NCBI RefSeq assembly: GCF_963675165.1
Contig: NC_087380.1
Span: forward strand, 6,518,071 to 6,582,070
Reading direction: 5' to 3'
Length of the DNA: 64,000 nucleotides
From: Halichondria panicea
Taxonomy: Eukaryota > Porifera > Demospongiae > Suberitida > Halichondriidae
Part shown: positions 2,644 to 43,610 of the stretch, in pieces
Position numbering within the stretch: position 1 is the stretch's first letter
Layout: each line of letters begins with the position of its first letter
Program-made: the position numbers and the translations under genes
The notes under the pieces: model-generated
Told to the model about the DNA's origin: nothing
What the model saw: the letters and a program-made list of their open reading frames with translations, nothing else
Databases searched by the model: none

Positions 2644-3550
2644 TTATATACATATAATTATAGGAGCATAATCGGAACACCCATGCATGCATGCATTCTC
2701 GGAACATGCAGCCCTCGGGGCTTACGCCCTCGTGCTTCAGTGCAATATATTCCATACATCCCTTGTGCATGCCCGTGTTATAACTATAACATACTATAAT
2801 TATTAGCTATAGTCCAACTATTCAGTTGCTCACTGTTCTATTAAACTTAGCTAGCTTCGCATGCAGCTGCTTGCTTGTTCTAATTATTCCGGACACTTCG
2901 CATACTCTGTAAAAATCTGTTCCAATTATATACCCGGACAATTTCCAAAATAATTATTTTTTGCTGTCCGATAAATTAGAAGATATATACGGTATATTCA
3001 AAAATACTTCCCCAAAAGTTGTTATAGTGGGAAATCATTTTAGGTGAAAAATGGGGGTGATGGTGTGTAACATCAATTATCTCCGGAATTAAAGTATTTC
3101 TAGACAAACTTTTCTTATCAAAAGTTAGACATTAATTTTATTCAAGCTTACTCGGTGTAATTTTTGGACCTTAGCTGTGAGATCTTCTTCAAATCTCTCC
3201 TTAACCGAAACGGCACTAAAAAGTAGCAATTTTGAGCACTGCGGAGGATGTGTAGATATATTTAAGCAACACTTTCACAAGATAGCCAAACTATCTATAG
3301 ATGTTGTGACAAAGTTCCAAACCGGCCTTATAACCGGAAACCTTATAGGCCTTTTCTCCCCCTAACCGATTACCCATGCATGGCCACTATATATATAACA
3401 CTGTTTTATTAATCACCACAGCTTATTCATTTACCTACACAATGGGATCAGTTGACTTTCTCAGAAATATTCCATATTTATACTTAAGTACCACTATATA
3501 CTCACACATTAATTTGTGGTATATTCTAACTCTTTAGATTGGATGCACTG

Positions 3551-3945
3551 TATAGTGAATGACAACTCCGGTCAGTGCATATTTCTACTCCCTCCACCAA
3601 ATTGATTGTAACAGCTCCGACAAGACAAAAAAACATACTCGACTTAGTGCTCAACGGCAACATTTCAAGTTATGGTAACTGAAAGAATCCATGGGAGTGA
3701 TCACGAAGCTGTATCTTGTCTTAAAATCCACAAGACCCAACATTCCTATGTGTTTTACTTCGAGAGGGGACTTTGTCAAATTCCAAGGAATGCTGAGGAT
3801 TATATTTCATGAAATATATGGTTCATTTCTGAGCGATGCCTGGATGAAGTTCAAATACCTGCTGCTGATGTCAGCAGACTATATAATGCATCCCTATAAG
3901 CTCACTCTCACAAACAAGAAACGCTCTATACCGGGTTAGCCCAAG
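3551..3945 (+). pseudogene. LINE endonuclease domain, C-terminal part (broken)
   Basis: Continuation of the LINE interrupted at 1392. Translated fragments TRQKNILDLVLNGN and HGSDHEAV are the conserved end of the EEP endonuclease (LDLVL...G-S-D-H), followed by YFERGDFVKFQGMLR and DAWMKFKYLL, typical of the linker before the reverse transcriptase. The open stretch 3691-3939 covers the last part. The frame then fails and no reverse transcriptase follows. Confidence 0.7.
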
Positions 3946-5051
3946 AAACGGTACGAGTGATGATGATGATCAGACACAAGGGCAAGCACCCTGCAGGGCT
4001 TACCTAAAAGCAAAAAGAACACAAAACAATCTGACTGCATGGTAGATACAATAACCATAGCAACACCGTGCAAGAATTCTAGAATAAACTCATTCATATA
4101 ATTATATATAGGCACTCTTTTTTATTAGAACACCTAAATTTCATGTGGAACACAATCTGCTTCTCTCAGTATATGCTCTATATAGTGCATCGTATACAAC
4201 TTTAAATTTACATTTTTAAACGTGCTGTTTTAATTCCCATGCATATATATAATTATAATTATTGTGAAACACAGCTAGCTCACAACCTCACGTTTTAGCT
4301 TAATACTCTTATACTTTTACTATAATTATTGGGAAGTACATGTACATTTATAGGATTATAGCTACGTGACTACCTATAAGTGCAATTCCTTTTGGATAAC
4401 ATTGTTCAATAAAATTCAAACAAAATTCTGCATGGCTATAGCCTATAATTATATACACAGGATCATAGGCTTTTGTTTCACTTCCATGCGTCACTATTAA
4501 GACTAACATGCAATAATATACATGCATGCAGTCTCACAACAAGTATATATACTGATCTCCTTTACATAATTATAATACTAGCAAAACACATTTGTACACT
4601 GGAAGTAAGCACTGTCTGTTGAACTTTACCTGGCAGAGCAGTATGACATGCATATACATGCATGCATGCATGGGTCTATAATTGTACATTAAATAATAGT
4701 TAGACACTGTTTTGGAGGTGTCTCTGTGATTTAGAAGCCCAAAGGCACTGATTTAGTATCCCGAGCGTAGCGAGGGTACTAAAGTGGCTGAGGGCTTCTA
4801 AGTCACATGAACACCGACAAAACAGTCATTTAGATACTAGTGCACATGCGCAAACCGCTTGACTACAATACAATTACTTGACAACGGAATACTAGGTATA
4901 CTAAGTAAATTTGCAGGTATACTAAGTCCCATAGTATACCTGCTCTGAGGCACTTTTCCCATGTACTTCTCATGTAGATCTTATCAACTAGTGTCTAACT
5001 ATAATTATAGTTTAATTTTACCACGAAGGCAGTAAAAAACCTGTAAAGCTA
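3946..5051. other. No gene seen; AT-rich filler with small palindromes
   Basis: AT-rich sequence with a short GAT microsatellite near 3959-3970, several TATAATTATA tracts, and a palindromic segment around 4700-4990. The latter carries the core CCCGAGCGTAGCGAGGGTACT, which resembles the GGGCTACGCC loops seen at 2114-2643. No coding frame is convincing. Confidence 0.5.
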
Positions 5052-6320
5052 AATTTCTCTTTTAGTGTGAACCCGCTGGACCTAACACTAAAAGATTATT
5101 TTACACCAGAGGTGTTTTGCATGTTCAGGCACTGTGTTACACACATTATACCACACTATTTTCAAGTACCACAGACTGTCAGAGACCAACAGCATCAGTA
5201 ACAATCTGTACAGATACATTTCTCTTTTAGTGTAAACTTGCGGACCTCACACTAAAAGAGAAATTTTACACCAGAGGTGTTTTGCATGTTCAGGCACTGT
5301 GTTACACATATCTACATCATTACCACACCATTTTAAGTACCACAGACAGTCAGAGACCAACAGCACCAGTAACAATTTGTACAGCTACAATTCTCTTTTA
5401 GTGTGAACTTGCGGACCTCACACTAAAAGAGAAATTTTACACCAGAGGTGTTTTGCATGTTCAGGCACTGTGTTACACATATCTACATCATTACCACACC
5501 ATTTTAAGTACCACAGACAGTCAGAGACCAACAGCACCAGTAACAATTTGTACAGCTACATTTCTCTTTTAGTGTGAACTTGCGGACCTCACACTAAAAG
5601 ATTATTTTACACCAGAGGTGTTTTGCATGTTCAGGCACTGTGTTACACACATTGTACCACACTATTTTCAAGTACCACAGACTGTCAGAGACCAACAGCA
5701 TCAGTAACAATCTGTACAGATACATTTCTCTTTTAGTGTGAACTTGCGGACCTCACACTAAAAGAGAAATTTTACACCAGAGGTGTTTTGCATGTTCAGG
5801 CACTGTGTTACACATATCTACATCATTACCATGCACCATTTTTAAGTACCACAGACAGTCAGAGACCAACAGCACCAGTAACAATTTGTACAGCTACAAT
5901 TCTCTTTTAGTGTGAACTTGCGGACCTCACACTAAAAGAGAAATTTTACACCAGAGGTGTTTTGCATGTTCAGGCACTGTGTTACACATAATTATATCTA
6001 CATCATTACCACACCATTTTTAAGCACCACAGACGGTCAGAGACCAACAGCACCAGTAATAATTTGTACAGCTACATTTCTCTTTTAGTGTGAACTTGCG
6101 GACCTCACACTAAAAGAGAAAGTTTACACCAGAGGTGTTTTGCATGTTCAGGCACTGTGTTACACATATCTACATAATTACCACACCATTTTCAAATACC
6201 ACAGACGGTCAGAGACCAACAGCATCAGTAACAATCTGTATACAGATACATTTCTCTTTTAGTGTGAACCTGCAGACCTCACACTAAAAGAGAAATTTAC
6301 ACTTGAGGGTGTTTTGCACG
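5052..6320. repeat. Tandem array, about 8 units of ~171 bp, each with a hairpin
   Basis: The phrase TCTCTTTTAGTGTGAAC recurs at about 5056, 5221, 5392, 5563, 5727, 5901, 6079 and 6253, a spacing of 164-178 bases. Each unit carries TCTCTTTTAGTGTGA and, eight to ten bases later, TCACACTAAAAGA. These are exact inverse complements, so each unit can form a strong stem. The rest of the unit (ACACCAGAGGTGTTTTGCAT, AGTCAGAGACCAACAGCA) is well conserved, and two subtypes alternate. The stem motif is the same as the terminal motif of the surrounding 149-6777 element. Confidence 0.9.
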
Positions 6321-6851
6321 TTAGCTCTGTATACTTTCAAACAGTGTAGTGATGTATAGACCCATACATGTCATAAACAATTCCTATATTAAGTATATAT
6401 AATTATAATAAAGCTCATGGAAAAACCAGTGACACCATGCACTCCCATTTTTTTGCAGCCTAGCTGAGCTACATCTACATCTAGTGATCTAGCTCATGAT
6501 TGATCCATACTTTACTGACAATGCCAGAGAAAACTTTGGGCACTGGAAAGGATTAGCTACAATTTAACCGGCAGGACAGAGTAGCATCTGATTGTCTAGG
6601 ATCTTCTTGAGACTGCATGCATGGCGTGCATGCATGTATATGTATGTAAGCTAGCCTATCTATATGCTGGTACACTAGTGTTAATGTGGTACCCGCCAGC
6701 AAATTGGACCCCGCTAGGCCACACCCATTATTTAATTTCACTTCCGGTATTTCTCTTTTAGTCTTTTAGTGTCCTAACAAACGCGATACAAAAGTTGGAA
6801 TACTGCAGGAATGCAATGCGGGAGTAACCTGCTATGTCGCACCCCTGCCTC

Positions 6852-7962
6852 TAGCCTCGATTCCAAGCCGCTGAGAAAGACGGCCTGGTATACACTGTTT
6901 ACGCATGCGCCAGAATTACCCAGAATCTGGGTAATCGTAAATTGTAGTATATTTATCAGTATTCTTATTCCGCATTAGTTTGTAAAACATTGATATCCGT
7001 TTCATTTATAATGATGTCATTGAAAAAAGAAATCTAGTCCAAGTTGTGTAATGGCTGCTACCTTCTCTTCTGCTCTCGCGTACGCGTTATCCTGTGTTGG
7101 AAAACCAGGTCTAGTCTTGAAAGACAAGCAGCTGGAGGCGTTGAAGTGTCTGTACGCTGGTGTTTATGTGGGTACCCTACCGACCGGCTATGGCAAGTCC
7201 CAGAGAGCAAGTCCATCTGCTTTCCAGACACTCCCTTTCTTGATTGATGTGAAGCTTGACAGGACCAGTGCACCTCTCTCTGAAAGAAGTGTTGTGATGG
7301 TGATTTCTCCTCTTGTTTCTCTTGTTTCTCTGAGTGAAGCCATCTTTAAAGTGTTAGTGTGTCTGTTCGACGTTCAGTACCATTCTCTCTGGAAGGAAGT
7401 ATTGTTGTGACATTTGCCGAAAATTGGTCACAGAGTAAGTACGTGGTATCTGATCCGAGAACTGTGTGGCCTGAATGTGTTTACAATCCGAGGGACTTGT
7501 GTGTATCTGATCCGAGGGACTTGTTGCTTGAGTGTGTATCCGGACTTGTTGCTTGAGTGTGTATTAATGGATAGTGCGCTCAATGGTAAATCTATTGTGT
7601 AAATCAATAAGTAGTCCTCACATTATGTTACGTCACAGCCACTGTACTTATCCACATTTATTTTTTACCCACAGGTTTAACTAATTTCTTATGAGATTAA
7701 CTTGTCGCCTGAGTGTGTATCCGATCCGAGCCTCAAGTTAATGAATAAATCTACAGAGCTGATGTTTTACTTAGCTGTCTCTGTCTACAGTATATACAGA
7801 GAGGTAGCCTCTCCTTTTTCTTTTTTCTGTTCTTTATCAATAAGATAAAATACTGTTTTAACGTTCAATGAGATAAAATACGGTAAATAATAAATTAATT
7901 GTCCACCCACGCGCCAACAGTAAATACCAGGCCCACTATTCAAGGGGCTGGAGTCGAGGCTA
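6852..7962. mobile_element. TAGCCTCGA-ended DNA element, 9-bp target duplication, with RecQ-like fragment
   Basis: It starts TAGCCTCGATTCCAAGCCGC and ends GGCTGGAGTCGAGGCTA, with the subterminal GGCCTGGTATA/TATACCAGGCC-type match of the family. A perfect 9-bp duplication CCCTGCCTC lies at 6843-6851 and 7963-7971. The subterminal sequence includes an ACGCATGCGC motif. The interior holds a RecQ-like helicase fragment (7051-7410), short direct repeats of GTGTATCTGATCCGAGGGAC (about 7440-7730), and a GCCTCTCCTTTTTC segment shared with elements at 24112 and 28076. Relatives sit at 20342, 24248 and 44455. Confidence 0.85.
7051..7410 (+). pseudogene. RecQ-like helicase, N-terminal fragment
   Basis: The 119-residue frame begins with the ATG at 7051 and reads LKDKQLEALKCLYAG, then GTLPTGYGKS (Walker A, helicase motif I, residues about 41-50), then SVVMVISPLVSLV (motif Ia region). 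This order is that of RecQ-type superfamily-2 helicases. The Walker A is followed by an altered segment in place of the expected motif-linked residues. The frame ends before motif II (DEAH), so the fragment cannot be a working helicase. It sits inside a 9-bp-duplication transposon, which suggests it was captured or is the remnant of an element-encoded helicase. Confidence 0.7.
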
Positions 7963-7971
7963 CCCTGCCTC

Positions 7972-8530
7972 CTCTGGGAATAGCACAAACGGGGTGGAAC
8001 CTACACGCGGTTAAGCTCACGTGGCTGCTATTTCTTGATTGAAGGCAAGAAAGACAAAGAAGTCGTTAAAATGCATTCCAATGACACAATTCAACTGGTG
8101 GCAAGTAACTTGAAGTAAGCGCCATAAAGAGACAAGTTTAGAGCATAAAACTCAGTGAATTTGTTGCTGGCTAGTATAGTAGCTAGAGTTTTACAAGTAG
8201 AGATTAGATTTGTTGTAACAACCAAGGCTCAGATGTTGGCAGTGATCCTATCCTGAATACAGGCACAGAATACTTATTAAACACTCTAAAACAGAATTAT
8301 ACTAAAAACAATAATATCTCAAAATCTAAGTGGTGATTAAAACTGGTTGAAAAGCTATTTCATATTAGTATAAGCCCAGCAATGAACCATCCTGATCCAA
8401 GTGTATTTCTTGAAAGATACATGCCAAACCAAATCCACTATCAAAGTACACAGTCTTGATCATGCACAAGTTAATGAGATTCATAATCCTTTTGGCTGGT
8501 CATGTGACCGTGTCGTACCTCCTCTGATTC
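7972..8530. other. No gene seen; solo transposon terminus at 8510-8526
   Basis: AT-rich sequence without a convincing frame. Near the right end, GTGTCGTACCTCCTCTG (8510-8526) is the same right terminus as that of the MITE at 22649-22769. No matching left end was found upstream, so it is a lone end, a few bases from the next element's target site. Confidence 0.5.
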
Positions 8531-8539
8531 TGATGTGTC

Positions 8540-8566
8540 CAGAGGAGGTTGGTCACGCGTCATAAT
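8540..8566. repeat. Left terminal inverted repeat
   Basis: About 26 bases from CAGAGGAGG to GTCATAA, matching 15719-15744 in reverse complement with one mismatch (C versus A at position 15). Confidence 0.85.
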
Positions 8567-8702
8567 TTGCTCATGTGACTGCAAAATCTTTTCTTTTTTT
8601 GTTGTTGCCATTTCCAATGAATCTCATTATTCTCCAACCTTTTCCAACCTAGCGTTAGATCGTAACGCAGTAGTGCAAAGTATTGCGAATGTGTTAGCAC
8701 TG

Positions 8703-11700
8703 ATGTCTTCTCTTCTAAAACGACCTAGGAGCAGTCCAACTTACTTGACACCGACCAGGCCAGGAAAACGAGCACCCCTAAGGCTAAGACTGTTAGAAAA
8801 CTCTCCCCATAGTAGATTCCCAGTCTGTAAACCTAGGCAGCTGGAGCTTGGTTCTCCTCACCATATTATTCATTCTGCTAATGCAAGTGTTACAGCTCCT
8901 CAACGACAAGTATACTGTAGACAATATGCTGATGCTTGGAGTGAGGCTGAGATCAAGGCTTTGGTAGAGTTTGTTCACTTTCACTGCGATAAGAGCAACT
9001 GGCCCACTCATCACAACAACAAATATTGGAAAGCAGCTGCTTCATTTGTTAGAACACAAGCCAAAACAACAGTTCAGCGATCAGGTAAAGTAAGAAGTAG
9101 ATGTCTCTGCTGGCGCTAAAGCCTTCAGTACTCAATATTCTAGGGGTGCTGCTAAATGCAACAGCATGAGTCGACTGTATTATAATATACATCATGTATA
9201 TAATTACATGCTGTCGAAGTTCAGTTGTACTGAAATAACGGCTTGAGATAATTATTGTAATAAATGTCACATGTCCCTTGGTTTTTTGTGTAGGTGCATC
9301 ATGCCGGTATAAAGTTGTTGGTTGGTTAAAGAAAAAATTTGCTCAGCCCCAAAATGCAGAGGACTTCTACTTTGCTTTACATTCTTCTGTTGCTATACAA
9401 ACTGAAGAAGCTAGTGTTAAGGTGCAGACCAGGTCCAATACAGCCAATGTCAGCGTACAGACCGCACGCATGTTAACAACAGCTAGTGTTCAGACTCAGA
9501 CGGAAGAAACAGTACCTGTGGCAGTAAGTGTTGAGGTGCAAACAGATGAACCTGCAATCACAAGTGCTCACCCAGTCGTATCACCTGATTTGCTGGCTTT
9601 GTCTGAAATGTTTTGTGACTATTGTAAGGAAACTTTGCATTTATGTGTACCAGCAGATTTCCTGGAATTGTCAGCAGCAGCAATGACTCACCTACAGAAC
9701 CACGGTCGATCAAATGTTATGTATAATCTGGCCAAAGGTGTGGGTACCGAACGACCAGACCAAAGTGATTCCTGTTTCCCTGTTCGTAGGATGCCAATAG
9801 GACTTGTAGAATATGTCACCAATTTCTTTTCAGCTACAGACATTAACTCGGTAGGGAAATATCTTATCTATAATTACAGCTACTGCATGTAACTCTCATT
9901 TTATATTCCAGGTTCCACCATGTCCACATGATTATCGATCGTGGTTGGAGACTATGTACTGCCAGTTTGGTCAGAAGTGGGCTAAACTCCATCATGGGCC
10001 AATGTGGAGTGTATCTGAATTGCATGGGACCTCTCACCAGAAAGAAAGAACACAGTCCAGGTATATATACTCATGCAGGAGGAGACGGGTTGTGGCTGCA
10101 TGATTGTATTAACTCCGGGCCTGTATATTAGTGTGTCTTTATATAATTATAGTTCATGTGTAAGTAGTGTTTCTCAGGCGTTAGCCAATATTCCTTCAGT
10201 AAGTGAGAGTACTCTCCGTCGTGACATTGCTGATAGTGGAATTTCTTTGGATGCCAGTATTCAGGTATCATGCATGTGTACACTATAGAATTTGGGCAAT
10301 GCACTACAAAAAAAATTAATCAATTTAACAATTTTTTTAATGGTCAAAACAATTGAAACTGAGGTGACATTTATTAATGTAGCTTTAACGAAGTACAAAA
10401 AGCGTCAATTCAACTTTTATGTAATAATTATAACAACTATTTAAAAATACTTATAAGTATTAATGTATAAAATATAGTTTTAACGTTATTATTGCTAGGT
10501 TAAAACTATTGTGTTTTATTGTCAAATCTACTTAAGCCATGCATACATTAAAACAACCATTAAGACAATACTTATTATAATAAATAAGACTCATTATAGC
10601 TAAATAAATTCCTAAAACAACGATTTACAAATGAATCGGTATAACAATTATTATTCAATTCAATAAATAACATGTTAATACAAAAATAGTGATAGGAAAC
10701 GTTCGTGACAACTGAGTGAGACAATGGTATACAATGTTAAATTAGAAGGACAGTTTTATATTAATTAGCCCAAGGAATAGTTCTTCTTGGTGTAACATAC
10801 TGGACTCACAAGTATAGCAGACCGATCACTCTTGACCACGCAGAGTCCACCTATAATAGTAAATACATCATTGTTATTGATATTAATTATTACCGTGTAT
10901 TATCAATCACCGAGAGGATATCCAACAATGACGCCACTTCTATCCATTCGTCTGTTTGTTTCGTTTGTTCTCGCATGTCAAGCTTGCCAGTTTAAGGAAT
11001 TTCTGTAGGAAAAAGTATATGCTTAGAGGTATATTGACAGTGACAGTGTTCACCAGAAAACTAGACACTTTATGTTTGTCCCTCACCTCTCACAGAAGTA
11101 TCATCATCCACTTGGTGTAGTCACAGTCATACCTATTAAAGTCTTATAATTATACTGTTGAGAACACTTCATGTCTGTCCCTCACCTCTCACAGAAGTAT
11201 CATCACAGTCAGATTTATAGCAGCAAATGTCCAGCATATAGAAAGGGTAATCGTCTTCTCTTTTCTTGGAGCACATGGTTTCACAGCTCTAGATCTACTG
11301 AGCATGCGCAATCTTAGACTTAGCATAGCCACGCCCACAATTTCATTTTAGTTTCTAGGTCCTCTAATATCTATGGTTCTATGCAAACTTGTACATTTCC
11401 TTACAATGTTCATGACTGTATATAATTTCACATCACTCATGCTATTATAAATGGATTGTTAAAAATATTGATTGTATATAATTATATGTGTGCCTGTGTT
11501 AGAACAAATATTATTATTGTTAAATCTAAATTTATATATTGTATTCTAACATGCTGCATGATAGAGTTTCAAATATAATTTAATCAAAATGAGTTTGTTA
11601 GTTTGATTTAAGATATCAATAATAGATTCTATATAAATTATTGTAGAAGTAAAAGACATTGTGTGATTCTACAATATTTTAAGTTAAAACCACATATACT

Positions 11701-14528
11701 GATTATTTTAACGTTGTCTTTTTATTTTACTAAATATTAAGTTGATTCAACTGTTTAAGAATAGTGTTAAAACGACTATGCAATGTAGTTTCAAAAAAAA
11801 TTTTTTGCAGTGTGTGTACCCGTTTTATCACCTCACAGATATCTGTGTTAGATGAAGCAGCCCGTGTTCATCCAGACACTTGGTGGTGGATTAAAGCTGA
11901 TGGTGTTGACTTGGTGAGTGGATTAGGAGAGTCAGTGAGAGGTGTTTGGAGTGGAGATGTAGATCTCGCTGACGGTTCACTGAAAAAAGCGTACGATGCT
12001 CATCAAACCAGGTTAATGTTTGTCAAGAGGATAGGAGTTGAAACAAGGTCAGATTCTTCCATCATTCTGAAGGACCTCATGATGTTGGAACAGCTTGTCG
12101 TGGAAGATTTAAAACACATCTCAGCTTGTAAGGTCTCTGCTGCATTCGATAACACTGCATATGTATAGACTTTCTGCATAATTATATCAAATGGTGGTTA
12201 CATGTTTCAATTCCAGGTATTACAGTAAAAGCAAAGCATTATGAAGAGAAGCAAGCAGCAGGAAAAACCTCCGAGAAGCAGATGTTTGGATTGGCATGGG
12301 ATGTTGAAGAGCTGGGCCGCATCAATGAGAGTGGAAGACAGCTTGTAGTGGAAAGTAGAGCTATGACGGACAAGCTGCGTGATCCTGCTTACGATAAAGT
12401 TTCTGAAAACTTTCCCAGGAAATTGAGTTCATTCAGGGAACAAGCTGTCCAGTTTTTAAAGAAATCAATGAAATTTAAACGTACCCCGGCTACTCATGTG
12501 CTTGTGGTAATGATTAGCCCAGAAGAGCGGAATAAGAAACCTTATGCTCTGCCGGTTCAGTGTGTGGCATATCATTCTTTAAAAGATGAAGCTGTCCGGT
12601 CTCTTGTCAACTCAATGATCAAAGAAATGACTTCAAGAGGAATGAAAGTAGCTGGTAAGTATACTGCATGCGTACGGTACATGTATACACTGTTACTCTA
12701 TAATGCAGGATTTGTTACTGATGGGGAGTGGAATTCATTAAGATCAAAGGGGAGAGAATGCCCACTCAGTATTTTTGAGATCCGTGCTCAAGTTCGTCGA
12801 AAGTATACTAGACTCTCTGTCAAAACTATGACAGATATGTTAACGCCCAAAGGTAGGACCTGGTATACATGCATGGTCATAAAACTATGTCATGGTATTA
12901 TGATTCCATCGCAGAGTTATCAGGAGGCTTAATACAAGCTTTGCATCCAAACCCTGCTGTTAGTCAAGACATATTGAAGAAAGTTTACACTTGTCTTAGT
13001 GAAGAAGAATGCTCAATGGAAGATGTGATAGTGCGCCTACGACAGAGGACCGTTCCTTCGGGATATGACTATCATATGGATTTCTGGTAATCTAGTGTAC
13101 AGTGTATAATACAGTCAGTATATATAATGATGTCATATAGATCAGTTATGTTAGTGACATAATAATATCTATTGACCATCTCATTATCAGGAAAGAAGGA
13201 AAAAAAAGAACACATGTTGCGTTCTATACTGGCTCAGTATGAGTACGCCTTTCGGGTGCTCCAGTATTGTGAACAAGGAATCAGTTTTGACAAGCATTTG
13301 CACATTCCAGAGGTTAACACAATCACAGGTGAAGTCCTCTGCCATAGAGAAGATGAAGGACACCTATTTAAGGTATAAAAGTATAGGGCATTGTATTTAA
13401 CATTCAATGTGCATTATACATTTTGCTTATAGCACTTCTGATCAATCAATTATGCATGTATTATAATTTATATGCACATGGAACAGAGGATGGGAAACAC
13501 TCTTCGTGAGGGACGGGTAGACGACAACAGAATGGAATATTTTGTAGAAGCTGTCAAAGATCCAAGCACTGGTCTCACATATCCTGCTTTGACTGGAGTG
13601 CGTAAGCAGCCCGTACAAGATGTTGAGCGCTTATTTGGTGAAGGAGTGATCAAATTTATGGAAGCAAAGCAATATATGCCTGAAGCCATCTATCTAAGAG
13701 TTGTGCGTAATTGGCGAAGAGCTGTAGATGAGAGAGGCTTGGGTGAAAGTACTAGGCAGCAATTCCTCCAGGAATTCAAAGATTTCATTTGTGCGGACCT
13801 CATGCCTTGGTATACTCATAGCAAGGATTTCAGCCTGCTGGAAGTTAACAGGTGTGTAACTTACTCTGTCCATCGTGTAAATTCAGCGATATAAGCATAC
13901 TGTTTTTCCCAGACCACTAGACAAGGTGAGAGGATTCACCAGAGAAACCTTAATTGGTGTCACCGCTGACATTGAGACCAGAATGTGGCGACACACTTTC
14001 AATAAAGCAAATGGCATTCCTCCAGAACATCCAAGAGCATCTACAACAGATGATGTGGAATGTTTCTTTAGCGTGCTGAGGGATTGTGTTGGCAAAGACT
14101 TTACTCTAAAGCAGGTGATACATGCATCAAGTATTATGATTTAGACAGTCAGAGTGAGTTTACTTTGCTTTTGCACCTAAATGTACACATGCACTTTTCA
14201 GGTATATTATGGGTGGAGAAAAATCACTCTTGAATTCAAGAAAAGAATGGATCCTTCTCTACCATTCTACTACTACACCACTGCCCACCAAAGATTTTAT
14301 GAAGGAGATTTGCCAGGGTTTGATCAACCAGCAGAAAAGATTAAATCAGTTCGGATTCCCCAACGAGAGCTTCTAGTTCCAGGGGTGTCTCGTAGAGCAA
14401 CTCTTCCAGTGAGAGGCAGCCTGTCCATCCGGGCAACATTTCATAATCGACCCGTGAATCTTCCTCCTCTACCGAATGCGAGTGTATCTTCTCTAGTTTC
14501 AGCTGAACATTCATATGCTCATGAGTAA
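8703..14528 (+). CDS. Candidate transposase, 12 exons, ~1,105 residues (one frameshift)
   Basis: Exons by GT-AG junctions that keep one frame: 8703-9084, 9294-9850, 9912-10060, 10153-10264, 11839-12127, 12217-12654, 12709-12852, 12915-13086, 13191-13372, 13487-13851, 13913-14114, 14202-14528. The start MSSLLKRPRSS lies inside the element; an upstream in-frame ATG lies outside it and was rejected. Residues ~79-138 (WSEAEIKALVEF...YWKAAASFV) look like a Myb/SANT-like DNA-binding domain. Residues ~150-215 hold five VQT/IQT motifs. The core has WWWIKADGVDLV (D~421), AGFVTDGEWNSLR (D~647) and TTDDVECFFSVLRD (E~980). By analogy with P/hAT-type transposases I infer a split DDE triad. An A8 run at 13200-13207 shifts the frame of exon 9 by one base; otherwise the frame is open. 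I do not recognise a named superfamily. Confidence 0.75.
10265..11838 (+). other. Long AT-rich intron of the candidate transposase gene
   Basis: At 1,574 bases it is far longer than the other introns (54-210 bases). It contains a duplicated block, CCCTCACCTCTCACAGAAGT (near 11080 and 11172), and no convincing extra exon or nested gene, although a small exon could be missed. Confidence 0.5.
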
Positions 14529-14786
14529 ACTGCTTAGCTGTATAATTTATATATAATTATATCATAATTATATACATGCATGCTAAGTCCATGCATTATA
14601 CCTATAATTATATGATTATAGCAAAATTAACGTATACTACAATTATACGTTGTCATTGGATATTATTAATTGATGTCGAGAACAGTTTAACCAAGAAATC
14701 ATACAGTGCTTGCACATTGCATAACTATTTTGTCCCATGAACCTTTTTGTGTTATTTTAATGCCACAATACCACCCAGGCTGTGAT

Positions 14787-15602
14787 CTAGTCCAGTGTGT
14801 AATAAATTTTACCCACTGTATATAGCTCCACCGATACTATTTTGTTGTCCTGCTGTGCTGTGTGTACATTCTCCAATACTTCGCGAACAAGATACCCAAC
14901 CCGTTCCCAAGAATGATCAACAAATCCCTCAATGGCAATGGCACTGGAATCATATTGATTAAAGGGTTCAGGGTTAATTCTTACGTCAGCTACTTCTCCC
15001 CTTCTCTTCTTCAATGCCATCTCAGCAAGTAATTCTTGGTACTTGGGTTCCTTGGTTGACCCAATACATTTAAAAACAACGGAGTGTAACACATCATTGC
15101 TACTGGTACCTGAATCAGTATCTTCCTCAGTATCCTCGTCATTGTCTTCTAAATCAGAATCACTAACATACTGAATTTCAGAATCGTCTACAGGTAGGGA
15201 TTCGGGAACAAATACAACCTCTGGCATTACAAACCAATTCCACAACACAAACAACTCATTATAAAACGTACTAAGTTCAGCTCCAGTAATGTCTATAGAT
15301 CTATTGAACTCTTGTAAGGGTATGAAAAAAGCATTTTCATGTCCAGCACACAACCGCAAAGTAGAATTGGCGCTTGCTGTTTGTGCATCATCTGCATGGA
15401 TAAACCCATCAAGCACGATTCCATTCAGTTTCTCATCATTTTCAATGGTGTACTGTATAGGAGTTAGTTTTGTCTTAAATACAGGAAAGCTGGGCACTGT
15501 GTAATCAATTGTTTTGCCGACTGAAACAACATATAACAGCATATGGTTGCTCTCAATTTCTTCACCACATTCATTACACTTACAGCCAACTACTTTGTCC
15601 AT
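14787..15602 (-). CDS. HIRAN-domain protein encoded by the transposon
   Basis: Intact 271-residue single exon, start at 15602. Residues 7-12 form a CxCxxC knuckle (CKCNEC), possibly a small metal site. Residues ~148-170 are an acidic linker (SDLEDNDEDTEEDTDSG). Residues ~174-268 match a HIRAN domain: VVFKCIGSTKEPKY, then RINPEPFNQYDSSAIAI and ERVGYLVREVLENV, the family's EP-x-N-x-x-D-x-x-A-I ... GYL pattern. HIRAN domains in HLTF/Rad5-type proteins bind DNA 3' ends, so a role in handling transposon or donor-site ends is a reasonable inference, not shown. The gene converges on the transposase gene, with 258 bases between their stops, and lies 142 bases inside the right terminus. The stop is at 14787-14789. 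Confidence 0.75.
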   Translation of the reverse strand: MDKVVGCKCNECGEEIESNHMLLYVVSVGKTIDYTVPSFPVFKTKLTPIQYTIENDEKLNGIVLDGFIHADDAQTASANSTLRLCAGHENAFFIPLQEFNRSIDITGAELSTFYNELFVLWNWFVMPEVVFVPESLPVDDSEIQYVSDSDLEDNDEDTEEDTDSGTSSNDVLHSVVFKCIGSTKEPKYQELLAEMALKKRRGEVADVRINPEPFNQYDSSAIAIEGFVDHSWERVGYLVREVLENVHTAQQDNKIVSVELYTVGKIYYTLD

Positions 15603-15718
15603 CTGGGAGGTCTATTAATCAATGCTTGCAGTGCGGTATCCTAGCTGGCTGGATCTCAGCTAGACGCAAACTCGCCAATATTTATAACAGCAGGCACTAA
15701 CACATGACTTGTGACGAG

Positions 15719-15744
15719 TTATGACGCGTTACCAACCTCCTCTG
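15719..15744. repeat. Right terminal inverted repeat
   Basis: Reads TTATGACGCGTTACCAACCT then CCTCTG, the reverse complement of 8540-8566 with one mismatch. It is followed at once by the 9-bp duplication TGATGTGTC. Confidence 0.85.
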
Positions 15745-15760
15745 TGATGTGTCAAAGCAG

Positions 15761-22574: not shown

Positions 22575-23138
22575 CAAAGGAGGCTGGAACCACTTGACCT
22601 TAGCTAATTAAGGTCACTAATTGGATTTATCAAACTTCTCTTGCAGACCAGAGGAGATACGACATCCGCGTGTCATCTGCATGTCTTTAACACACACATT
22701 CCGAACTTTGACCTAAGGAATGTGTGTCTAAAACGTTTCCTTTGACACGCGGATGTCGTACCTCCTCTGCTTGCAGACTACTTCAAGCCTAGTTTTTAGT
22801 GTCTATCAGTTTAAAACGTTATTTTTCAGGGGGGGTCAAATTTTTTTTTCGCCAATTTTACTCAAAAGCAGAGATACAATCAAAAGTCTTGCTCTTGTAT
22901 ATACTAGCCTCGATATCATGAGCGGCTTGTTTTCGAGGTCACTGCATAGCTGGCTTTGAGACTTGTATCTCTGCTTCTGAGCAAAATTGGCGACAATAAA
23001 ATTTAACCCCTCCCCTGAAAAATAACGTTTTAAACTGATAGACACTAAAAACTAGGCTTGAAGTACATAATCTGCAAGAGAAGTTTGCAATTAGTGACCT
23101 TAAAATTAGCTAAGGTCAAGTGGTTCCAGCCTCCTCTG
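22575..23138. mobile_element. CAAAGGAGG/CAGAGGAGG element with 9-bp duplication, interrupted
   Basis: It starts CAAAGGAGGCTGGAACCACT and ends AGTGGTTCCAGCCTCCTCTG. The perfect 9-bp duplication CGGCACAAC lies at 22566-22574 and 23139-23147. The inner arms AAACGTTATTTTTCAGGGGG and its complement pair across a centre near 22900. A second element (22649-22769) has inserted in the left arm. Confidence 0.85.
22649..22769. mobile_element. 121-bp MITE, CAGAGGAG ends, 9-bp duplication, nested
   Basis: It starts CAGAGGAGATACGACATCCG and ends CGGATGTCGTACCTCCTCTG. The perfect 9-bp duplication CTTGCAGAC is at 22640-22648 and 22770-22778. The arms TGTCATCTGCATGTC and ACACACATTCC pair imperfectly. Termini match those of the 7.2 kb transposon for the first eight bases, which makes it a likely client of the same transposase. 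Confidence 0.9.
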
Positions 23139-27164: not shown

Positions 27165-27945
27165 GGATCACAGTACTGTACTCGTAATCAATTTCAGGCC
27201 CATCCATTTCCTAGAATGACTGATTGCTGGATCGATTTACTGGTAATCAATTGCAGGCCCATCCATTTCCTAGAATGACTGATTGCTGGATGGATTTCCT
27301 GGAATCACTGATTGCTAGTACATCGATTTCCTAGAATCACTGATTGCTGGATCGATTTCCTGGAATCACTGATTGCTAGTACATCGATTTCCTGGAATCA
27401 CTGATTGCTAGTACATCGATTTCCTGGAATCACTGATTGCTAGTACATGGATTTCCTAGAATGACTGATTGCTGGATGGATTTCCTGGAATCACTGATTG
27501 CTAGTACATCGATTTCCTAGAATCACTGATTGCTGGATCGATTTCCTGGAATCACTGATTGCTAGTACATCGATTTCCTGGAATCACTGATTGCTAGTAC
27601 ATCGATTTCCTAGAATCACTGATTGCTAGTACATCGATTTCCTAGAATCACTGATTGCTAGTACATCGATTTCCTAGAATCACTGATTGCTAGTACATCG
27701 ATTTCCTAGAATCACTGATTGCTAGTACATCGATTTCCTAGAATCACTGATTGCTGGATCGATTTCCTGGAATCACTGATTGCTAGTACATCGATTTCCT
27801 GGAATCACTGATTGCTAGTATCGATTTCCTAGAATCACTGATTGCTAGTACATCGATTTCCTAGAATCACTGATTGCTAGTACATCGATTTCCTAGAATC
27901 ACTGATTGCTAGTACATCGATTTCCTGGAATCACTGATTGCTGAC
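27165..27945. repeat. Minisatellite, ~33-bp unit, about 24 copies
   Basis: The unit reads roughly ATCGATTTCCTAGAATCACT then GATTGCTAGTACA, with variants GCTGGATCG and CCTGGAATC. Higher-order alternation of the variants is visible. A few reverse-complement units lie at 25870-26060 in the opposite arm of the host element, so the array expanded on one side only. Confidence 0.9.
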
Positions 27946-29112: not shown

Positions 29113-29228
29113 CAGGCCTACACATCTGCGTGTCAAAGGAAACGTTTTAGACACACATTCCTTATGCCAAAGTTTGGAATGTGTGTGTTAAAGACACGCG
29201 GATGACACACGGATGTCGTACCTCCTCT
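29113..29228. repeat. Worn copy of the CAGAGGAG MITE
   Basis: ACACATCTGCGTGTCAAAGG ... TTTAGACACACATTCC and GGAATGTGTGTGTTAAAGAC ... GGATGTCGTACCTCCTCTG correspond to the MITE at 22649-22769, reversed in its centre. The left terminus is degraded and no target duplication is clear. Confidence 0.65.
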
Positions 29229-29670
29229 GGGCCTTACTTTTCTTAACTGTACGCCCATTTCTTTCTTTGCTGCCTCACTATGTCTTTCTTATGATATGGA
29301 TGAACAGTGACAACAGCAAGGCCTGGGAACGAGGCTAGGAAATTGGCTGCTTTACAAAAAAGTTAAATATCACGTGACCTCAAATTAAAGGCACTAGGAT
29401 AAAAATAATATTGTTTATAGTTTTTTGGTCATGTATACGTATATAATTATGACTAAAATTAATTAATGCACTTCCGCTTATTGAGGAAGTTAGGGGTGTG
29501 TTTTCAATTAAAATTCTATGAATATCATTATCGTTAACAAATGCCTCAATCCGCTTCCTATTTTGGAAATAATAGCTTGAGAAACTACAAATTGACTTTG
29601 CATGGCCTAGCACCCGCCTTCTTGGGTGGCTAGGTCAATAGTGCCAGTGTCTGAGGCCTTCCATAGTGTG

Positions 29671-42654: not shown

Positions 42655-43085
42655 ATTTGTGTCTATATATAGAAGATGGCACAAAATTATGTTCTCAATT
42701 TTCATGATTACTTTGGAATGAGTTCTCTAATTCGTAGCCTCAATATCACATTCGTGTCTATATTGAATGGCACAAAGAATTAAAAATTATGTTCTCAATT
42801 TTCATGGTTACTTTGGAATGTAGCCTCAATATCATTCGTGTCTATATTGAATGGCACAAAAAATTAATAATTATGTTCTCAATTTTCATGGTTACTTTGG
42901 AATGAGCCTTTCATGAGTATTGAATGGCACAAAGAATTAAAAATTATGTTCTCAATTTTCATGGTTACTTTGGAATGTAGCCTCAATATCATTCGTGTCT
43001 ATATTGAATGGCACAAAAAATTAATAATTATGTTCTCAATTTTCATGGTTACTTCGGAATGAGCCTTTCATGAGTATAGCCTCAA
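42655..43085. repeat. Tandem repeat, five ~85-bp units upstream of copy A
   Basis: The unit AATTATGTTCTCAATTTTCA + TGGTTACTTTGGAATG recurs five times, with variable linkers (TAGCCTCAATATCATTCGTG, TTCATGAGTATTGAATGGCA). It sits in the 5' flank of copy A and is absent from the corresponding place in copies B and C. Confidence 0.85.
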
Positions 43086-43610
43086 CAACAACCCCATCTA
43101 TGAGCCCGTTTTGAACTGCCATCTTCAAATCATATGGTCGTTGGCACTGGCAGCTTCGGAAAACCTTTCATTTCCTCCCCTCCTCTGCCAAATGACGCCG
43201 GTCGCAGCTGTACGCGGAGATTAGTTGAGGATAAGACTTAAACTTGCTACGTCTGTCTGTAGTGTGTGTCTGTGACCTCTCATGACCCTTCAGGCTCACT
43301 CCAAATCGGCCACATTGCCGTTAGTGGGAAGGGAATTATAGTAAACTGCATGTACACCTCATCACAAATCTTGCATAAATATAAATCTGGTAGTGGATAT
43401 ATAAGTTTCCTATGAAGAGGAGAGGGTGGTGGGTAATACAAGAATGCTGTGTTGCATGTCCCGGGTATTAGATAATCCACCCTCATGTAAGCAAGCCTGT
43501 TGATGTGTTGTGTGGGTGGCTAAACAAGTTAGCTTAAATTAGGAACACATTCTCTACGGATTCCATGTTGCCACGCTATATATGCAATTGTATTATCACC
43601 GTGACTGCTA
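43086..43610. repeat. Duplicated upstream flank (copy A)
   Basis: CCTCTCATGACCCTTCAGGC, ATAATCCACCCTCATGTAAG and CCTGTTGATGTGTTGTG recur as reverse complement at 54345-54800 and in the same orientation at 63600-63950. It is the distal upstream part of the duplicated NIDO unit. Confidence 0.75.

Follow-up and report, generated by a model that had tools for sequence, protein, structure and literature searches.

A two-gene DNA transposon with a SANT-like head, a predicted P fold and a convergent HIRAN gene in the sponge Halichondria panicea

The stretch of DNA analysed here, referred to as the window, comprised 64,000 nt of the Halichondria panicea genome (assembly GCF_963675165.1, contig NC_087380.1, positions 6,518,071-6,582,070, forward strand), and position numbers refer to the window unless another locus is named. 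A mobile element carrying two genes, one for a transposase and one for a HIRAN-domain protein, lies at 8540-15744. Its 26-nt terminal inverted repeats (8540-8565 on the + strand, beginning with CAGAGGAGG, and 15719-15744 on the - strand) were complementary at 25 of 26 positions, and the 9-mers bordering the element (8531-8539 and 15745-15753) had the same sequence, TGATGTGTC. Both the near-perfect repeats and the exact 9-bp target site duplication reported in a first-pass annotation of the window were thereby confirmed.

The 12 exons of the transposase gene (8703-14531, + strand) counted in that annotation were assembled at positions 8703-9084, 9294-9850, 9912-10060, 10153-10264, 11839-12127, 12217-12654, 12709-12852, 12915-13086, 13191-13372, 13487-13851, 13913-14114 and 14202-14528 (stop codon included in the last). 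All borders were GT..AG, and the assembled protein had approximately 1,105 residues. Exons 1 and 2 with their intron (8703-9850) encode the N-terminal region, where a weak Myb/SANT-like match was found at residues 77-145 (E 0.032). The segments previously singled out as possible D/D/E motifs, KADGVDLV, FVTDGEWNSLR and TDDVECFF, sat at the catalytic positions of a predicted RNase H fold. The candidate catalytic D1 lies in KADGVDL on the first strand (exon 5, 11839-12127), the candidate D2 in FVTDGEWNSLR directly after strand 4 (exon 7, 12709-12852), and a D together with the candidate catalytic E, at a spacing of 3, in TTDDVECFF (exon 11, 13913-14114).

The accessory gene (14790-15602, - strand), convergent to the transposase gene and adjoining the right terminus, was a single exon of 271 codons encoding, as judged from the model of the relative P0019, an OB-like domain, an acidic linker and a HIRAN domain. 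The product scored 14.6 bits against the Pfam HIRAN profile, under the cut-off of 24.7. Its gene was frame-shifted ahead of the conserved C-terminal region of about 40 residues, which was still readable as an out-of-frame remnant at approximately 14699-14820 (- strand). The transposase frame was open through exons 1-8 and again from just past an A-run in exon 9 (13191-13372) to exon 12; this run, at 13200-13207, broke the frame and left the two parts out of step. The two nearly full-length genes described earlier were located, but both frames were broken, and the apparent autonomy of the element is doubtful for this copy because of these breaks. The window copy is complete in architecture but is probably dead and not autonomous, or else contains two small sequence errors.

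The genome searched was the 131.5-Mb assembly of 39 contigs (designated C1, C7 and so on). There were 57 matches to the middle part of the transposase and 42 to the HIRAN protein, both numbers being lower bounds since the best candidates alone were scored, and a homologous protein is annotated in H. panicea as LOC135338466. Eight more elements with both ends were recovered from stitched loci, namely C14 (5,358 bp), C16 (7,041 bp), C10 (5,860 bp), C15 (5,999 bp), C8a (5,537 bp), C7 (5,695 bp), C8b (7,848 bp) and C12 (6,991 bp). Both ends begin with CAGAGGAG in all nine bounded elements, the window's included, with a deviation at base 9 of the C14 left end. The duplications were exact and 9 bp long in seven of the nine, 9 bp with one mismatch in C10, and 8 bp in C8b. 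Since three elements had ends identical over the 80 bp compared and a fourth had ends matching at 73 of 74 positions, some copies are probably recent.

All nine fully bounded elements carried the transposase gene on one strand and a convergent HIRAN gene at the opposite end. Over the wider set, a HIRAN match lay within 8 kb at 15 of 24 transposase loci, when about 0.16 was expected by chance, and a finer local search added C5:3.953M and a HIRAN fragment at C8:3.599M, which brought the paired loci to 17 of 24. All 17 were convergent, as determined from the match strands. The transposase was incomplete or fragmentary at six of the seven unpaired loci (C11:3.426M, C3:1.661M, C10:3.515M, C1:8.688M, C1:8.703M and C16:3.305M; C11:3.451M was left out). 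The complete elements together with the paired loci ruled out the HIRAN gene as a chance neighbour. The two-protein mobile system proposed in the first-pass annotation was thus upheld; relatives lacking the HIRAN gene had been named there as the contrary case, and this case was not borne out in the one genome examined.

Canonical P-type transposase loci of the same genome provided a comparison, as 46 matches to the profile TNP-like_RNaseH_N (PF21787) were found at 42 loci. A HIRAN match within 8 kb was present at one of the 42 with the first HIRAN lists and at two of the 42 with the wider list (about 0.36 expected, taking 70 loci). One of these two matches was the HIRAN gene of a neighbouring SANT-type element on C10, outside whose ends the P locus lay; the other, at C15:4.219M, was a decayed HIRAN match 3.5 kb off. 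As the pairing was near-absent at canonical P loci, the HIRAN partner goes with the SANT-headed lineage within this genome. Transposase and HIRAN gene almost certainly form a two-gene unit in this sponge. Eight of the canonical P-type loci shared an identical score of 92.4 bits (three on C1 and one each on C2, C3, C4, C9 and C12), and a 570-aa open frame was present in five; these loci probably represent a family of P elements that has been active recently in this sponge.

The HIRAN domain was compared among five elements of different subfamilies, where the proportion of nonsynonymous differences (pN, 0.39-0.51) was below that of synonymous differences (pS, 0.72-0.92) in all 10 pairs. Because pS was saturated, the ratio gives a sign and not a rate. 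Two of those pairs (C8a/C10 and C7/C8a) gave no blastn match between the whole-element DNAs. In two close HIRAN pairs, the changes were too few to be informative on selection.

The first-pass annotation had left the transposase without a superfamily. The predicted structure of the relative P0001 showed the fold of the P element over residues 262-990, with a D on strand 1, a D after strand 4 and an E on helix 4, a helix separated from strand 5 by an insertion. At E<=0.1, a match to PF21787 was obtained for 12 of 16 relatives, the best with E 5.5e-9, and two relatives had a precomputed assignment. The window transposase matched with E 7.4e-5 and 23.5 bits, slightly under the cut-off of 24.6. In P0001 numbering, D401/D404 were conserved in 15 of 15 sequences, D623 in 14 of 16 (N in two), D778-x2-H781 in 16 of 16, and D954 and E957 in 15 of 15. 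The catalytic pattern described for the P element includes D528/E531 (PMC8230255, PMC7776569), and this spacing of three is the same as that in TTDDVECFF of the window transposase. On the basis of the modelled structure, the transposase very probably has the P fold, which replaces its earlier unassigned status.

The sponge family has in common with the P element and THAP9 the predicted fold, the D(2)H and D..E signatures, inverted ends and the occurrence of internally deleted copies. It differs in an extra helical segment between strands 1 and 2 (residues 427-560 of P0001), in duplications that are mostly 9 bp, when those of the P superfamily are 8 bp, and in the second, HIRAN-containing gene. 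Whereas the P element and THAP9 possess a THAP domain, none was found at E<=1 in the window protein or at E<=0.1 in the 16 relatives, about seven of which include the N-terminal part; weak Myb/SANT-like matches were found instead in the window protein and two of the 16 relatives. The family was therefore classed as a lineage with the P fold and kept apart from canonical P elements and THAP9. Transposases of MULE, hAT and Transib/RAG elements share the RNase H fold with the sponge transposase, and 9-bp duplications are typical of MULEs. A MULE assignment, which the duplications had suggested, appears less likely, no MULE Pfam match having been obtained at the thresholds used with the window protein or the 16 relatives; the absence of MULEs from the structure-match list was not decisive. 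A PDB sequence search with the transposase profile returned no DDE transposase at E<=10. Relatives of the transposase were found in sponges, lancelets, a mussel, a ribbon worm, a brittle star and an anemone, and none in the viral contigs scanned with it.

Several observations weigh against a P-fold lineage whose two genes travel together. The genome search with the PF21787 profile listed no locus of the SANT-headed transposase family. The decayed locus C10:3.515M keeps scattered transposase pieces, the C-terminal one included, with no HIRAN match. The correlation of transposase and HIRAN distances in Mantel tests was high with near-duplicates still in (r 0.89, n=13; r 0.78, p 0.0003, n=10), but fell to r 0.42 (p 0.027, n=9) without the last near-duplicate, with p 0.066-0.076 at n=6-7. 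Strong codivergence of the two genes was accordingly rejected, and little is claimed from these tests.

The HIRAN assignment of the accessory protein was clearer in other copies, the element genes at C8:4928427 and C12:3243716 reaching 39.2 and 38.8 bits against the same cut-off of 24.7, and 12 of 30 relatives matched the Pfam profile at E<=0.01 (best 4.8e-6). A PDB sequence search with the accessory profile reached the HLTF HIRAN at E 2.1 only. The P0019 model showed a HIRAN barrel fold of the HLTF type, and its N-terminal part ranked with the OB folds of MCM and RPA, although many OB folds look alike. The equivalent of N91, the DNA-pocket asparagine of HLTF, was invariant in 25 of 25 sequences and the next aspartate was present in 24 of 25, whereas the position equivalent to Tyr93 was variable, mostly K, F or Y. 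Unlike HLTF and Rad5, the proteins scanned had neither an SNF2 motor nor a RING domain among their Pfam matches. HIRAN is described as binding the 3'-OH at a single-stranded DNA end and as letting HLTF evict Cas9 from cut DNA (PMC11237066).

How the two proteins might work together was also considered. Judging from fold and signature residues, the transposase would bind the CAGAGGAG ends, cut by P-type DDE chemistry and insert with a stagger of 9 bp, sometimes 8 bp. P transposase is described as cutting with a 17-nt stagger that leaves 3' single-stranded extensions, an unusually long stagger that sets P elements apart from other characterised cut-and-paste transposons, and as using GTP as a cofactor in Drosophila (PMC7776569). 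The accessory protein, with its modelled OB-like domain, acidic linker and HLTF-like HIRAN domain, would bind such long 3' tails on the excised element or at the donor break. An occupied 3' end may then be protected both against resection and against those HLTF-type translocases of the host that remove proteins from cut DNA, so that the cut complex would last until insertion, or repair would be steered. A role in 3'-end handling is made more plausible by the OB-like and HIRAN architecture, the invariant asparagine of the HLTF pocket and the 17-nt overhangs described for P (PMC7776569); we put this role forward tentatively, at somewhat less than an even chance. The same reserve applies to a binary system of transposase and end-binding protein in which the OB and HIRAN domains may hold or shield P-type 3' tails or counter host HLTF. 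The overall description, in which a SANT-headed lineage with the P (P element/THAP9) fold moves by cut-and-paste as a two-protein unit with the accessory protein on the 3' tails, appears about as likely to be right as wrong.

Other roles of the HIRAN protein were weighed against this end-binding reading. It may serve to regulate the element, repressing it or limiting its copy number by binding to the ends or by competition with the transposase, and take no part in end chemistry. Truncated transposase acts in this way in the Drosophila P element. In the sponge element, the HIRAN protein is encoded by a separate gene beside the right terminus, read from the end opposite to that of the transposase gene. 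Among 15 HIRAN loci inspected that lacked a nearby full transposase, 10 were bounded by both ends, with duplications of 9 bp in seven, 8 bp in one and none in two, and L038, L042, L056, L057, L059 and L060 aligned as internal deletions of C14/C16-type elements. Such derivatives, which retain HIRAN after losing most of the transposase, speak for a regulator, although their frequency is uninformative since they were found through a HIRAN search. Nine of the 10 bounded derivatives had a stop within at least one HIRAN match, which gives them the look of passive deletions, and the domain pair resembles binders of single-stranded DNA or 3' ends rather than sequence-specific repressors; we regard a regulator as unlikely.

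The protein might alternatively direct the insertion of the element, or the copying of the donor, to replication forks by recognising nascent 3' ends, tethering the transpososome and raising copy number. HIRAN is described as taking HLTF to stalled forks (PMC4666394), and the ranking of the N-terminal part with MCM and RPA would fit, but the general likeness of OB folds detracts from it, and the proposal seems decidedly unlikely. Similarly improbable is host interference, in which the motor-less HIRAN protein would act mainly as a dominant negative against host HLTF/Rad5, outside the transposition complex: the isolated HIRAN domain is described as inhibiting, in vitro, both resection and the HLTF-driven removal of Cas9 (PMC11237066), while interference alone leaves the OB-like domain unexplained. 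That the HIRAN gene is a captured passenger and plays no part in transposition, as the numerous solo or decayed copies in the wider genome search (80 HIRAN matches, many with stops) might suggest, is highly improbable, given a convergent HIRAN gene in nine of nine complete elements with several differing end sequences and fewer amino-acid than synonymous changes in all 10 pairs.

Short and decayed members of the family were also observed. A 24-base pattern taken from the ends of the C14/C16-like subfamily, allowing <=3 mismatches, occurred at 303 genome sites versus 0 for a backward control, and among 100 sites listed, several facing pairs lay about 250-790 bp apart in the manner of miniature inverted-repeat transposable elements. 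The pattern search thus showed about 300 genome sites bearing the ends of one subfamily, some as short non-autonomous copies. Similar HIRAN-gene matches with 3-4 in-frame TGA codons, at C6:1680937, C12:4927452, C7:4332838, C13:193867, C1:12882448, C9:3409105 and other positions, had no nearby transposase match and perhaps represent another deletion derivative that spread. In locus L003, a decayed copy of the first ~1 kb of the window element (5964-6765 of that locus) lay between two ends of another subfamily (..GCTTCGCACCTCCTCTG on the left and CAGAGGAGGCGCGAAGC.. on the right), an arrangement suggestive of nesting among several members of the family.

Within the window, the 9-mer CAGAGGAGG occurred eight times versus 0.24 expected. 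Further sites were located, all on the - strand, at 7968-7976, 22761-22769, 23130-23138, 29221-29229 and 43179-43187, and the one ending at 23138 resembled the termini of the C8b/C12 subfamily. Another, related element had its right end at 8490-8526 (CAGAGGAGGTACGACACGGTCAC on the - strand), 13 bp short of the window element. This end was like that of the C13 HIRAN element in locus L053; a left end was sought in 3000-8540 and not found. Intron 4 of the transposase gene (10265-11838, + strand) held a separate repeat, for which a 301-bp probe (10300-10600) gave 24 genome matches, most of them 94-98% identical, and whose ends by eye resembled CACTACAAAAAAA/TTTTTTGCAGTG. Tandem arrays were found at 5042-6322 (unit 171 bp, 7.5 copies), 27201-27942 (unit 32 bp, about 24 copies) and 42734-43077 (unit 84/157 bp).

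As a cut-and-paste transposon of the P superfamily, the element belongs to a type already known. What is new is the SANT-like head, the prevalence of 9-bp duplications and, most of all, the OB-HIRAN gene. No description of HIRAN with a eukaryotic transposon was found in the open-access literature as covered by titles and the beginnings of abstracts, with Repbase and most subscription papers outside this scope. KolobokP, described as combining a DDE transposase with a His-Me finger endonuclease, is likewise a eukaryotic DNA transposon with a second enzyme-type gene, although its description sets it apart by another superfamily and another partner (PMC9587614). With the sponge family, the P-type transposons gain a member that has a SANT-like head and whose duplications are mostly 9 bp long. 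Its complete copies carry a second gene built like DNA-end binders, which suggests that the element supplies its own tool for loose ends. As this P-fold lineage keeps the architecture of a 3'-end or single-stranded DNA binder across divergent subfamilies, the fate of the 3' tails becomes directly testable, and the family offers a natural two-component system for the study of cut-end protection, eviction and repair.
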